Source: Brachybacterium epidermidis
GTDB lineage: Bacteria; Actinomycetota; Actinomycetes; Actinomycetales; Dermabacteraceae
DNA length: 64,000 nt
Assembly (NCBI RefSeq): GCF_015209585.1
Contig: NZ_JADEYR010000011.1
Span: 1-64,000, forward strand
Reading direction: 5' to 3'
Below, in pieces: positions 19,794 to 37,463 of this stretch. Positions within the stretch are counted from its first letter, which is position 1. Each line of letters opens with the position of its first letter. Position numbers and translations under genes: made by a program. Under the pieces are notes generated by a model. That model searched no databases. It saw nothing but the letters and a program-made list of their open reading frames with translations, and was not told the DNA's origin.

Positions 19794-19843
19794 GACGACG
19801 GCGGTGGCATCCGGTCCTGCGACCGGGTGCCACCGCCGTCGTC
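19794..19843. terminator. Long bidirectional hairpin between tRNA-Leu and pyk
   Basis: Arms of 23 nt (19794-19816 and 19821-19843) with one non-Watson-Crick pair and a CTGC loop. It lies 6 bp after the tRNA and 6 bp after the convergent pyk stop, so it should end transcription from both sides. No T-tract. Confidence 0.75.
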
Positions 19844-21421: not shown

Positions 21422-22907
21422 TCACAGTGTAATGGGCGAGGCCGACGGATGTACCGGGACCGGGAGCGCACTGCTGCCCATCAGGTGCGCGTCGACCGCG
21501 GCGGCGGCCGCGCGTCCCTCCGCGATGGCCCACACGATGAGGCTCTGCCCGCGGGCGCAGTCTCCCGCGGTGAACACGCCGGGCGCACTGGTCTCCCAGG
21601 TCGCGGCGTGCTCGATGGTGCCGCGGCGGTGCCGGGTCACCCCGAGCGCCTCGGTCAGCGCCTCGCCGCCGGGGCCGGTGAAGCCCATCGCGATCAGCAC
21701 CAGCTGGGCCGGCAGCTCGTGCTCGGTGCCCGGGGTGGGCACCCGGCGGCCGTCCTGGATGCGGGTGCGAGCCACCCGGATCCCCCGCACCGCTCCCTCG
21801 GCATCGGCCACGAACCCGGTGGTCGAGGCCAGGAACGATCGGTCCCCGCCCTCCTCGTGGGCGCTGCTGACCTCGAACAGCAGGGGTGGGTGGGCCAGGG
21901 GTGCCCGGCATCGCGCTCGGCCGGGGGCTGCTGGCCGATCGCCAGGTGGTCACGGAACGGGCACCCTGGCGCAGCGCGGTGCCCAGGCAGTCCGCACCGG
22001 TGTCGCCACCGCCGATGATCACCACGTCCTTGCCTTCGGCGGAGATCGGGTCGGCCACCCAGTCGCCCTCCACGGCCCGATTGGCCTGGGTGAGGTACTC
22101 CATGGCCGGGTGGATGCCGGTGGCCTCACGACCCTCGACCGGGAGGTCCCGGGGGGTCTGGGCACCGATCGCGAGCACCACCGCGTCGAAGCGGGAGCGC
22201 AGCTCCTGCACGGACAGAGCGTCCGGGCCGTCTGCCCCCACCTCGACACCGGTGCGGAAGCGGGTCCCCTCGGCACGCATTTGCTGAAGCCGCCGATCCA
22301 CGTGGCGCTTCTCGAGCTTGAACTCGGGGATGCCGTAGCGGAGCAGTCCGCCGATGCGGTCGTCCTTCTCCAGCACCACCACGGTGTGCCCGGCGCGGGT
22401 GAGCTGCTGCGCGGCGGCCAGGCCCGCGGGCCCGGAGCCCACCACGGCGACGGCGCGGCCCGTCTGGCGGGTGGGCTCCACGGGCTGCACCCATCCCTCC
22501 TCGAAGGCCCGGTCGATGATGGAGACCTCGATGTTCTTGATCGTCACCGGGGGTTGGTTGATGCCGAGCACGCAGCTGGACTCGCAGGGGGCGGGGCAGG
22601 CTCGCCCGGTGAACTCGGGGAAGTTGTTGGTGGCGTGGAGGCGCTCGGCGGCCTCGCGCCAGTCGTCCCGGTACACCAGCTCGTTCCACTCCGGGATCAG
22701 GTTGCCCAGCGGGCAGCCCTGGTGGCAGAAGGGGATGCCGCAGTCCATGCAGCGGCCCGCCTGCCGGGAGACCCGGCTCAGGCCCTCGGGCCCCTCCTTC
22801 TCCCGGATCTCGTAGACCTCGCGCCAGTCCATCAGCCGCACCGGCACGGGCCGGCGCGGGGGCAGTTCGCGGTCGCGGTGCTTGAGGAAGCCGCGCGGAT
22901 CAGCCAT
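21422..22907 (-). pseudogene. gltD: Glutamate synthase small subunit, with two apparent -1 frameshifts
   Basis: FAD/Fe-S subunit that feeds NADPH electrons to GltB. The start at 22907 overlaps the gltB stop by 8 nt. Intact N-terminal features: cysteine cluster [13 protein letters not shown] (about 50-62) and [12 protein letters not shown] motif [15 protein letters not shown] motif GGGDTGADC. After GARSVTT the frame breaks near 21945: the expected [21 protein letters not shown] reads in the next frame. It breaks again near 21884, after which [14 protein letters not shown] to the C-terminal [14 protein letters not shown] segment reads in the third frame up to the stop at 21422. Both breaks are one missing C in a C-run. 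With two bases restored the product is 495 residues, the normal size. This is either a real loss of GltD or a sequencing error; the conservation on both sides favours error or a very recent event. Confidence 0.85.
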
Positions 22908-25900
22908 GGGAGCCCTCCAGGATCGTGTTCCACACCTCGTGGGAGTCGGGGTCGATGCCGTCCTCGACCGCACGGTCGCGCAGGGCGGTCACCCGGAGGA
23001 ACTCGCGCGGTGCGATCTGCGTGATCCGCGCGAGGGTCTCCTCCGGGGCCTCCAGCAGGGCCGCGGCCAGCACGGATCCGGTGCGGCGGGCGTGCTCGCG
23101 CAGGGCCTCCAGCACGAAGCCGCGGTGCTCCTCGCGCAGCGGCGTGATCTCGAAGGTCGCGGCGTCGGACGGGTTCAGGCGGGCGGGGTCGAGGTCCAGG
23201 ACGAACAGGGTGCCGCCGCTCATCCCGGCACCGAGGTTGCGCCCGGTGGTGCCCAGCACCAGCACCGCACCACCGGTCATGTACTCGCAGCCGTGGTCGC
23301 CGATGCCCTCCACCACCAGGGTGGCCCCGGAGTTGCGCACCCCGAACCTCTCCCCCGCCTCACCGGCCAGGAACATCCGCCCGCTGGTGGCGCCGTAGGC
23401 GCAGGTGTTGCCCGCGATGGTCATGGGCCCCGGCGAGGCATCCGGGCCGAGTCCCACGGCGATCACGCCTCCGGAGAGCCCCTTGCCGACGTAGTCGTTG
23501 GCGTCCCCGCGCAGCTCGATGCTCACGCCCGCCGGCAGGAACGCCCCGAAGGACTGGCCTCCGGTTCCCTCCAGCTCGAGCCGGATGGTGTCGTCGGGCA
23601 GACCGGCACCCCGGTACCGCCGGGTCACCTCATGGCCCAGCAGGGTGCCGACGGTGCGCTGCGTGTTGCGGACGGTGTCGCGGATGACGACGGGCTCCCC
23701 CCGGTCCAGGGCCGGAGCGGCCTGCTGGATCCAGGGACGGTCGGCAGCGGTCTCCAGTCCGTGCTGCTGGGCGCGGCGTCGGCGCACGTGGTCGCCCTCG
23801 TGGATCCGCGGGGCCGCCAGCACGGGCGAGAGGTCGAGGCCCTGCTGCTTGTAGTGGCGCAGGGCGTCGTCCACGTCCAGCAGGTCGATGCGTCCCACGG
23901 CCTCGTCGATCGAGCGCAGTCCCAGGTACGCCAGGTGCTCGCGCACCTGCTCGGCGATGAACTCGAAGAAGGTGATCACGAACTCCGGGGTGCCGGTGTA
24001 CCGCTCCCGCAGCTCCGGGTTCTGCGTGGCCACGCCCACGGGACAGGTGTCCAGGTGGCACACCCGCATCATGATGCAGCCCGAGACCACCAGCGGGGCG
24101 GTGGCGAAGCCGAACTCCTCCGCACCCAGCAGCGCTGCCACGACCACGTCGCGGCCCGTCTTCATCTGTCCGTCCACCTGCACGGTGATGCGGTCGCGCA
24201 GGCCGTTCAGCAGCAGGGTCTGCTGCGCCTCGGCCAGGCCCAGCTCCCAGGGGGTGCCGGCGTGCTTGAGGGAGTTCAGCGGGCTGGCGCCGGTGCCTCC
24301 GTCGTGCCCGGAGATCAGCACCACGTCGGCGTGGGCCTTGGAGACCCCGGTGGCGACGGTCCCCACCCCGAAGCGGGAGACCAGCTTGACGTGGATGCGG
24401 GCAGCGGGGTTCGCGCACTTGGCGTCGTGGATCAGCTGGGCGAGGTCCTCGATCGAGTAGATGTCGTGGTGCGGCGGCGGGGAGATGAGGCCGATGCCGG
24501 GCGTGGAGTGCCGGGTACGGGCGATCCACGGGTACACCTTGGGGCCGGGCAGCTGGCCGCCCTCACCGGGCTTGGCGCCCTGGGCCATCTTGATCTGGAT
24601 GTCGCGCGCGAAGGTGAGGTACTCGCTGGTCACGCCGAAGCGCCCGGAGGCGATCTGCTTGATGGCGCTGGAGCGCTCGGGGTCGTGGAGGCGCTCGGGA
24701 TCCTCCCCGCCCTCCCCGGAGTTGGACATGCCGCCCAAGCGGTTCATCGCCACCGCCAGGGTCTCGTGGGCCTCCTGGGAGATGGACCCGTAGCTCATGG
24801 CCCCGGTCATGAAGCGCCGAACGATCGAGTGGACGGGCTCCACCTCGTCCAGGGGCACCGCCGAGACGGCGTCGGTGCGCAGGCGAAGCAGCCCGCGCAG
24901 CGTCATCAGGTGCTCGGAGCGGTCGTCCACCAGGTCGGTGTAGCGGCGGAACTCCTCGTACTGCCGGGTGCGCGTGGAGTGCTGGAGGCGGAAGACCGTC
25001 TCCGGCGTGAAAAGGTGCGGCTCCCCCTCCCGCCGCCACTGGTACTCCCCTCCCACCTCGAGGCGGCGGTGCGGGGGGCGGGTGCCCTCCTCGGGGTGCG
25101 CACGGCGGTGCCGGGCGGCGTTCTCCTCGGCGATGACGTCCAGGCCGATGCCGTCGATGCGGCTGGTGGTGCCAGGGAAGTACTCCTCGATTAGCTGGGC
25201 GGACAGCCCCACGGCCTCGAACAGCTGCGCCCCGCGGTAGGAGGCCACCGTGGAGATGCCCATCTTGGACATGATCTTCAGCACACCCTTGCCGAGGGCC
25301 GTGATCAGGTTGGCGACGGCCTCGGGTCCGCTGACCCCGCCGACGACGTCGCGCCGCACCAGGTCCTCGGCGCTCTCCATCGCCAGGTACGGGTTCACAG
25401 CGCTGGCCCCGTACCCGATCAGCAGGGCGGCATGGTGCACCTCGCGCACGTCACCCGCCTCGACCAGCAGCGCGGCACGGGTGCGTCGCCCGGTGCGGAT
25501 CAGGTGGTGCTGGACGGCGCTGGTGAGCAGCAGGCTGGGGATGGGTGCGAGGCGGGCGTTGGAGTCGCGGTCGGACAGCACCAGGAAGGTGGCGCCCTCG
25601 TCGATCGCGTCCGTTGCCTCCTGGCAGATCTCGGCCAGTCGCCGCTCCAGTCCCTGCGCTCCCTCGTCCACCGGGTACAGGCCCTTGAGCCGCACCGCGT
25701 GCAGGTCCGCGGTGCGGGGCGAGGCCGAGACGGCGAGGATGCGGGCCAGCTGGTCGTTGTCGATGATCGGGAAGTCCAGGGCGAGCTGCCGGGCGTGGGC
25801 CGGGGTGGCGTCCAGCAGGTTGCGGGACTCCCCGATGCTCACCCGCAGGCTGGTGACGATCTCCTCCCGGATCGAGTCCAGCGGAGGGTTGGTGACCTGG

Positions 25901-36196: not shown

Positions 36197-37463
36197 CTAG
36201 GGTACGGCCGGGAGCCGACGCACGAGCTCATCGAGCACGGCGTGGGCGACCTGCGTCTTGCTGCCCTCGGAGCGGGCGACCTGCCGGCCCTCGGAGTCGA
36301 GGATCATCACGGAGTTGTCCGCCGAGCCGAACACGCCGGTGGTGACGTCGTTGAACACCAGCAGGTCGGCGCCCTTGCGGCGGGCCTTCTGCGCGGCGAG
36401 CTCCAGGGCACTGTGACCTGCGCCTCCGGTCTCGGCGGCGAACCCGACGATCCCCGGGCGGGGCTCCTCGCCGCGCCAGGTGACCGTGCTGCGCAGGATG
36501 TCCTCGGTGCGCCGCAGGGCGATCGCTGGGGCGTCCTGCTCGGCGGGGTCCTCGCTCTTCTTGATCTTGTCGGCGGAGCGCTCCGCGGCGGTGAAGTCGG
36601 CCACGGCGGCCGCCATCACCCCGGCATCGACGTGCTCCCGCTGCTCGGCGATCAGCGAGGCGAGCTCGGCGGCGGCGAACGTGCAGCGCGAGGACCCGCC
36701 GGTCGACGCCCGGCGGGTCCTCGAGCTGCACGTTCGCCGCCGCCAGGGTGACGCGCGCACCGCGCACCAGGGCGGCGTGTGCGAGGGCCCAGCCCTGACG
36801 GCCCGAGGAGTGGTTGGCCAGGAACCGGACCGGGTCCAGCTCCTCCCTTGTGCCGCCGGCGCTGATCAGCAGGCGGCGGCCCTCCAGGTCGCGGTGCACG
36901 GCACCCAGGGCGGTGCGCGGGGCGGCGATGGCCGCGCGCGCCGCGTCCAGGATGGCGGCGGGCTCGGGCAGGCGACCGGGGCCGGAGTCCGGTCCGGTGA
37001 GGCGACCCACGGCGGGCTCCAGCACGACCAGACCGCGCTCGCGCAGCACCGCCACGTTCTCCACGGTGGCGGGGTGCTCCCACATCTCTGTGTGCATCGC
37101 CGGGGCGACCACCACCGGTGCCCGGGTCACCAGCAGGGAGGCGGTCAGCAGGTCGTCGCCGCGTCCCATGCGCAGGCGAGCGAGCAGGTCCGCGGTGGCG
37201 GGGGCGATCACCACCAGGTCGGCCTGCTGGCCGACCCGGACGTGAGCGACCTCCTCGACGCGCTCGAACACGCTGGTGAGCACCTCGTGGTGGCTGAGCG
37301 CCTCCCAGGTGGCGGTGCCCACGAACTGGAGGGAGGAGGCGGTGGGGATGACCTGGACATCGGCTCCCTCACCGACAAGACCGCGCACCAGGTGCGCGGT
37401 CTTGTAGGCGGCGATGCCGCCGCCCACGCCCACCAGGACGCGGGCACCGGCGAGGCTGTTCAT
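36197..37463 (-). pseudogene. coaBC: CoaBC (PPC decarboxylase/PPC synthetase), frame broken by a palindromic insertion
   Basis: Bifunctional flavoprotein of CoA synthesis: CoaB joins cysteine to 4'-phosphopantothenate, CoaC decarboxylates the product. From ATG 37463 the CoaC half is intact: GVGGGIAAYKTAHL, VVAPAMHTEMWEHPAT with the catalytic His region, and the GPGRLPEP flap. The CoaB half begins with ISAGGTREELDPVRFLANHSSG, then runs into a 35-bp inverted duplication at 36668-36744. Beyond it, homology (AAELASLIAEQ, GVMAAAVADF, KIKKSEDP, GFAAETG, FNDVTTGVFG) continues in another frame to the TAG at 36197. The span is 1267 nt, not a multiple of three. The enzyme is normally essential, so an assembly error, or a recent template-switch mutation with rescue elsewhere, must be considered. 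Followed by metK after 5 nt, the usual order. Confidence 0.85.
36668..36744. repeat. 35-bp inverted duplication inside coaBC
   Basis: Arms 36668-36702 and 36710-36744 are reverse complements with a single mismatch (36688/36724) around a 7-nt centre. The right arm is the normal coaB coding sequence (AANVQLEDPP); the left arm copies it in inverted form where VxxVxTAAEL-type sequence is expected. It causes the coaBC frameshift. Confidence 0.95.

Follow-up and report, generated by a model that had tools for sequence, protein, structure and literature searches.

How does a normally essential gene come to lie in two reading frames at a near-perfect palindrome, and was it broken in a living cell or in the making of its sequence? 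The gene is coaBC of a Brachybacterium-like actinobacterial genome (30 contigs, 3,073,790 bases, completeness 99.88%). The window, by which we mean the whole 64-kb stretch of DNA analyzed, has a GC content of 68–74%.

A palindrome at the frame break of coaBC

The gene lies on the minus strand and is read in two pieces with an inverted repeat at their junction. Its features are as follows.

37463, minus strand: ATG of coaBC
36699..37463, minus strand: coaBC piece 1, CoaC and N-terminal CoaB (TIGR00521 positions 2–245)
36710..36744, minus strand: donor arm of the palindrome, normal CoaB codons (LAAANVQLEDPPG), with a similar protein motif in frame in relatives
36703..36709, minus strand: loop of 7 nt
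36668..36702, minus strand: copy arm, the reverse complement of the donor with one mismatch, CoaB-like at its ends and a new tract in its middle
36677..36698, minus strand: stretch of 22 nt standing against four DFP profile positions (64–67, equal to 12 nt), a net gain of 10 nt that breaks the frame
36197..36676, minus strand: coaBC piece 2, C-terminal CoaB in a different frame with its own stop (TIGR00521 positions 257–391)

The frame of the first piece continues past the junction to a stop at 36228. In the Pfam search the DFP domain (PF04127) is divided between 36699–36887 (profile positions 1–63) and 36299–36676 (positions 68–186, in a different frame), which bears out the claim of an earlier note on this DNA that the palindrome breaks the coaBC frame. 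CoaC and CoaB, which share one open frame in a functional CoaBC, do not do so in the window. A GARVTL-like motif and MAAAVAD stand 145 nt apart here, whereas in the other sequences listed their spacing is divisible by three and mostly 135 nt. Searches for a second CoaB in the same genome returned one match only with a protein query, and with the PF04127 profile, followed up to E = 10, four matches below the cut-off (12.3 to 15 bits) beside the two pieces of coaBC.

The palindrome itself is as the earlier note had described it, with arms of 35 nt at 36668–36702 and 36710–36744, a loop of 7 nt, and 34/35 positions paired; a repeat search extends it to arms of 38 nt with 1 nt between them at 95% identity. 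It is the longest of the 10 inverted repeats listed for the window (at least 22 nt, arms within 200 nt), and the only one of these to exceed 30 nt with more than 90% pairing. Its hairpin score (match +1, mismatch −2) is 32, against 13 for the next-best hairpin around the site. This is the top score across the 704 kb of the assembly that were sampled, where the runners-up reach 20 (406,555 bases) and 21 (a further 297,611 bases), and the highest score in 580,000 bases of four relatives is 27. Taken as RNA, the 77-nt palindrome has a predicted fold of −83.2 kcal/mol (z = −13.4), with 0/200 shuffles equally stable.

Origin of the copied arm

Comparison with relatives places the anomaly in one arm. 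The nearest named coaBC, that of Brachybacterium squillarum, is 86% identical over the CoaC part (among the best 80 of 554 relatives), and the nearest relatives reach 88% identity in CoaC. The protein of the genus relatives mostly reads ...AANV-x-LETPPGA-xR-x-DVGSAAEL... in a single frame. A motif search covered 141 sequences, 132 of them readable and 9 unreadable by the motifs used. Among the readable sequences, which include duplicates because some loci were fetched twice via different searches, 129/132 are in frame at the site and free of the palindrome; the three exceptions are all the window, once as such and twice as refetched copies. PF04127 matches 36 of 38 genus genomes and gave no match in 2, the match of the source genome being the one in two pieces. 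In 33 of the 35 other PF04127-positive genomes the domain is almost whole in one frame, and in one relative (G038) the match stops at the contig end. A frame loss further along the gene was seen in the relative G044 (L133; single contig, 85% complete), where coaBC loses its frame in the C-terminal part, near C1 1660118, and PF04127 matches at 3–147 only.

The upstream arm alone can be read as normal CoaB from end to end, and the in-frame motif of the relatives confirms the earlier note on this point. The left arm had been described as an inverted copy standing wholly in place of unrelated coding sequence, and here the description holds in part. The tract between Asp-Arg-Arg and Ala-Ala-Glu-Leu has no counterpart in relatives and is the reverse complement of the upstream arm, but the outer end, GCC-GCC-GAG-CTC (Ala-Ala-Glu-Leu), is common among relatives, and the inner Asp-Arg-Arg matches the nearest relative (L112) at the protein level, with differing codons. 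The single mismatch appears to sit in the copy arm, since the upstream arm retains CTC-GAG codons that are common in relatives.

These features very probably reflect a short-range snap-back template switch, a known mechanism that gives rise to quasi-palindrome-type mutations. As is expected of such an event, the arms are near-perfect, one being ancestral and the other its copy; the sequence rejoins the gene after the copied tract, with DFP resuming at profile position 68; and short repeats mark both the point where the gene is left and the point of return. In the sequence of steps that we propose, a strand growing in the same direction as the coding strand of coaBC would pause just past the Asp-Arg-Arg codons, and its 3′ end, CCGGCGG, would snap back onto the freshly made complementary CCGCCGG across a loop of 7 nt. 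The snapped-back strand would then copy its own upstream stretch in reverse and rejoin the proper template at the GCC-GCC repeat of Ala-Ala-Glu-Leu. The outcome would be a reverse-complement tract, a near-perfect 35-nt palindrome, a gene longer by 10 nt, and the loss of the CoaB frame. Short pairing seeds in the ancestor are plausible from the codons. The normal upstream arm, the copied middle of the left arm, and the frame break together support the template-switch signature that the earlier note had recognized. A preexisting hotspot is unsupported, because the site is not unusually quasi-palindromic in relatives (mean hairpin score 6.6 in 26 relatives, against 6.6 for random stretches of the same loci) and because the inner seed is absent at the nucleotide level in L112.

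Two other origins would do without a template switch. The palindrome might be a small inserted element or a natural hairpin from elsewhere, as the net gain of 10 nt might suggest, and another frame-breaking insertion, of about 31 nt and with a small hairpin, is found in an IS256-like transposase of the same genome. However, the adjacent CoaB codons already account for the new tract, which is their reverse complement; an outside source is unneeded, and we regard such an insertion as very unlikely. A chance likeness of two GC-rich coding stretches would draw on the high GC content, at which short inverted repeats are common in a random sample. Its probability is practically nil, since no hairpin in 20 first-order Markov simulations of 64 kb scored above 14, against the observed 32, and the frame breaks at the same spot; on the simulated scores we rejected it.

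The coaBC palindrome is thus one more case of a known type of copying error, and published cases differ from it in instructive ways. In the quasipalindrome template-switch mutations of Escherichia coli (PMC7202029), the nascent strand likewise copies itself across a short inverted repeat and leaves a more perfect palindrome. Those cases lie at recognized quasi-palindromes, whereas here we infer no more than an inner seed of about 7 nt, and relatives show no hotspot; the gene hit by the coaBC event is, moreover, normally essential, and a cellular origin is only a possibility. Template switches in yeast coding genes also make inverted-repeat arms similar within protein-coding sequence, but they are described as amino-acid replacements in genes that are kept (PMC8604942), while in coaBC the frame is broken. 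Coding palindromes in nematomorph mitochondria similarly place a long inverted repeat inside protein-coding DNA; there both arms encode conserved protein (PMC6649704), whereas in coaBC only one arm does so throughout and the frame is lost. A literature search brought up no report of a palindromic frameshift in coaBC, and one on frameshifts and pseudogenes in Brachybacterium genomes brought up a single genome announcement. As a worked example, the locus lets a snap-back template switch be followed base by base in a gene that is normally essential.

Frame breaks elsewhere in the assembly

Several other genes of the same assembly are broken as well. We scanned 704,166 bases of it for frame switches with an in-house model built from 36 open frames, and judged the flags by reading three-frame translations. 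The scan gave 11 frame switches without a nearby stop, 9 of which, in 8 genes, read as broken genes, coaBC included; of the other two, one is an ordinary gene border (L186) and one is undecided (L181 14232). Applied to 580,000 bases from four relatives, the scan gave a single flag, at an ordinary carB/pyrF border. The chance of all nine falling in this assembly is about 0.005, a figure calculated by hand for equal rates and independent sites and weakened by non-random sampling of the scanned stretches and by the paired SNF2 sites; the controls were single-contig assemblies, set against a source draft of 30 contigs. The further breaks are as follows.

L151 15107: TetR regulator
L152 18630: SpoU methylase
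L153 11991: GH32 enzyme
L159 15555: aspartate kinase (lysC)
L164 14017 and 14145: SNF2 helicase (presumed), two sites
L181 11765: HAD hydrolase
L162 around 15079 (G000 contig C12): IS256-like transposase (presumed)

The names of the SNF2 and IS256 genes are those we take them to have from reading the translations. Pfam searches on five of the breaks (TetR, SpoU, GH32, aspartate kinase, and HAD) found parts of the family to either side. In SpoU and GH32 a single model spans both frames above its cut-off; the second part of HAD and the C-terminal part of TetR fall under the curated cut-offs, and the two parts of aspartate kinase are different domains (kinase and ACT), so that the split is less direct. 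The IS256-like copy is 501 bases long, against 470 bases in two other copies in the genome (83–84% identity), and the extra stretch of about 31 nt, which holds the small hairpin, breaks its frame; this copy may be an ordinary dead transposon.

A comparison of open frames with the relatives G039 and G004 covered about 14.4 to 52.7 kb and 61.4 to 64 kb of the window. The gene for the small subunit of glutamate synthase, gltD (21425–22988, minus strand), which the scan missed, changes frame near 21950 and differs slightly in length from both relatives; it is the only further true split in the ranges compared. A split row at pyrF/mihF proved on reading to be a shadow frame. The assembly thus holds unexplained frame breaks at nine sites in eight genes, plus gltD, and these may themselves be errors.

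Both pieces of coaBC are well kept. The first retains 132/134 and the second 32/32 of the residues that are invariant in 27 relatives (27/29 genus loci were used for this set, G044 among them). Mean identity to relatives is 0.829 for piece 1 and 0.654 for piece 2, and the corresponding values for L112 are 0.813 and 0.654, which puts piece 2 within the normal range of the relatives, with no decay. Because the second piece keeps all and the first nearly all of the invariant residues, with identities like those of the relative L112, the break would be very recent, absent in the cell, or bypassed.

Living cell or consensus, and further palindromes

We lean toward an artefact, with the palindrome possibly absent from the organism, because other genes are broken in the same assembly and the downstream CoaB piece is undecayed. 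On this evidence the event was probably, though by no means surely, made in the library or the consensus, the coaBC of the living cell being intact; that the sequenced material itself carried a real and recent mutation has a sizeable chance, short of an even one. Where one draft shows aspartate kinase, gltD, and coaBC all broken, with well-kept pieces, consensus errors would seem an easier account than a strain that has lost all three. The structure of the palindrome itself fits an artefact less well. Artefacts at inverted repeats in sequencing libraries, explained by the PDSM model, also involve pairing of single strands in vitro that puts reverse-complement copies into reads; those described are chimeric, soft-clipped reads from human libraries at low allele frequency (PMC10908179), whereas the coaBC palindrome stands in a consensus that returns correctly to the gene on its far side. 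The one mismatch in the copy is likewise unexpected of a simple read fold-back. Furthermore, the other breaks are small length changes with hairpin scores of 6 to 10, none of them beyond the random range, and therefore give no proof that this assembly generates palindromes.

The coaBC gene serves coenzyme A (CoA) synthesis and is normally needed. Depletion of CoaBC is reported to be bactericidal in Mycobacterium tuberculosis (PMC7794376), and in Bacillus subtilis coaBC is described as essential yet deletable when pantethine is supplied (PMC11487621). The earlier note had held that a true break would need a second CoaB. None was found in this genome, but the need is not strict, because coaBC can be deleted on pantethine in B. 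subtilis and this genome has a type I CoaA (TIGR00554, 462.5 bits); a type III pantothenate kinase was not found in the genome. A strain with inactive coaBC might take up pantetheine-type precursors and phosphorylate them with CoaA, bypassing CoaB and CoaC, and the double-ended templated structure of the palindrome would suit the model of quasi-palindrome mutation in vivo (PMC7202029). Against such a loss stand the retention of at least PanC of the pantothenate route, the undecayed second CoaB piece, and the other broken frames of the assembly, some of them in housekeeping genes, and we judge it rather unlikely. Alternatively, coaBC might remain functional by recoding, with ribosomes slipping or hopping over the hairpin and so joining the two frames. 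The conservation of both pieces and the very stable predicted mRNA hairpin would accord with this, but no comparable structure exists in the other readable coaBC genes, no slippery run was seen on reading the arms, and frame breaks elsewhere in the assembly explain the undecayed pieces more simply; recoding is barely credible. That the palindrome is truly part of the sole coaBC of the strain, which would then live by pantetheine salvage or ribosomal frame joining and have a nearly complete actinobacterial genome without normal CoaB, is doubtful. If it were so, the organism would be an actinobacterium dependent on a CoA precursor. The locus also serves as a warning that essential genes that appear to be missing from drafts can stem from template switches or consensus errors.

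Elsewhere in the genome, a perfect, loopless 40-bp palindrome at L156 16535–16574, between two convergent genes, is probably a two-way terminator. In the window, a 23-nt inverted repeat with a 4-nt loop at 19794–19843 is possibly a terminator as well. We also considered other palindromes as signs of wider template switching and set this reading aside; those of this genome score at most 21, and two of the next ones (L156 and L159) are intergenic on reading of the open reading frame lists.
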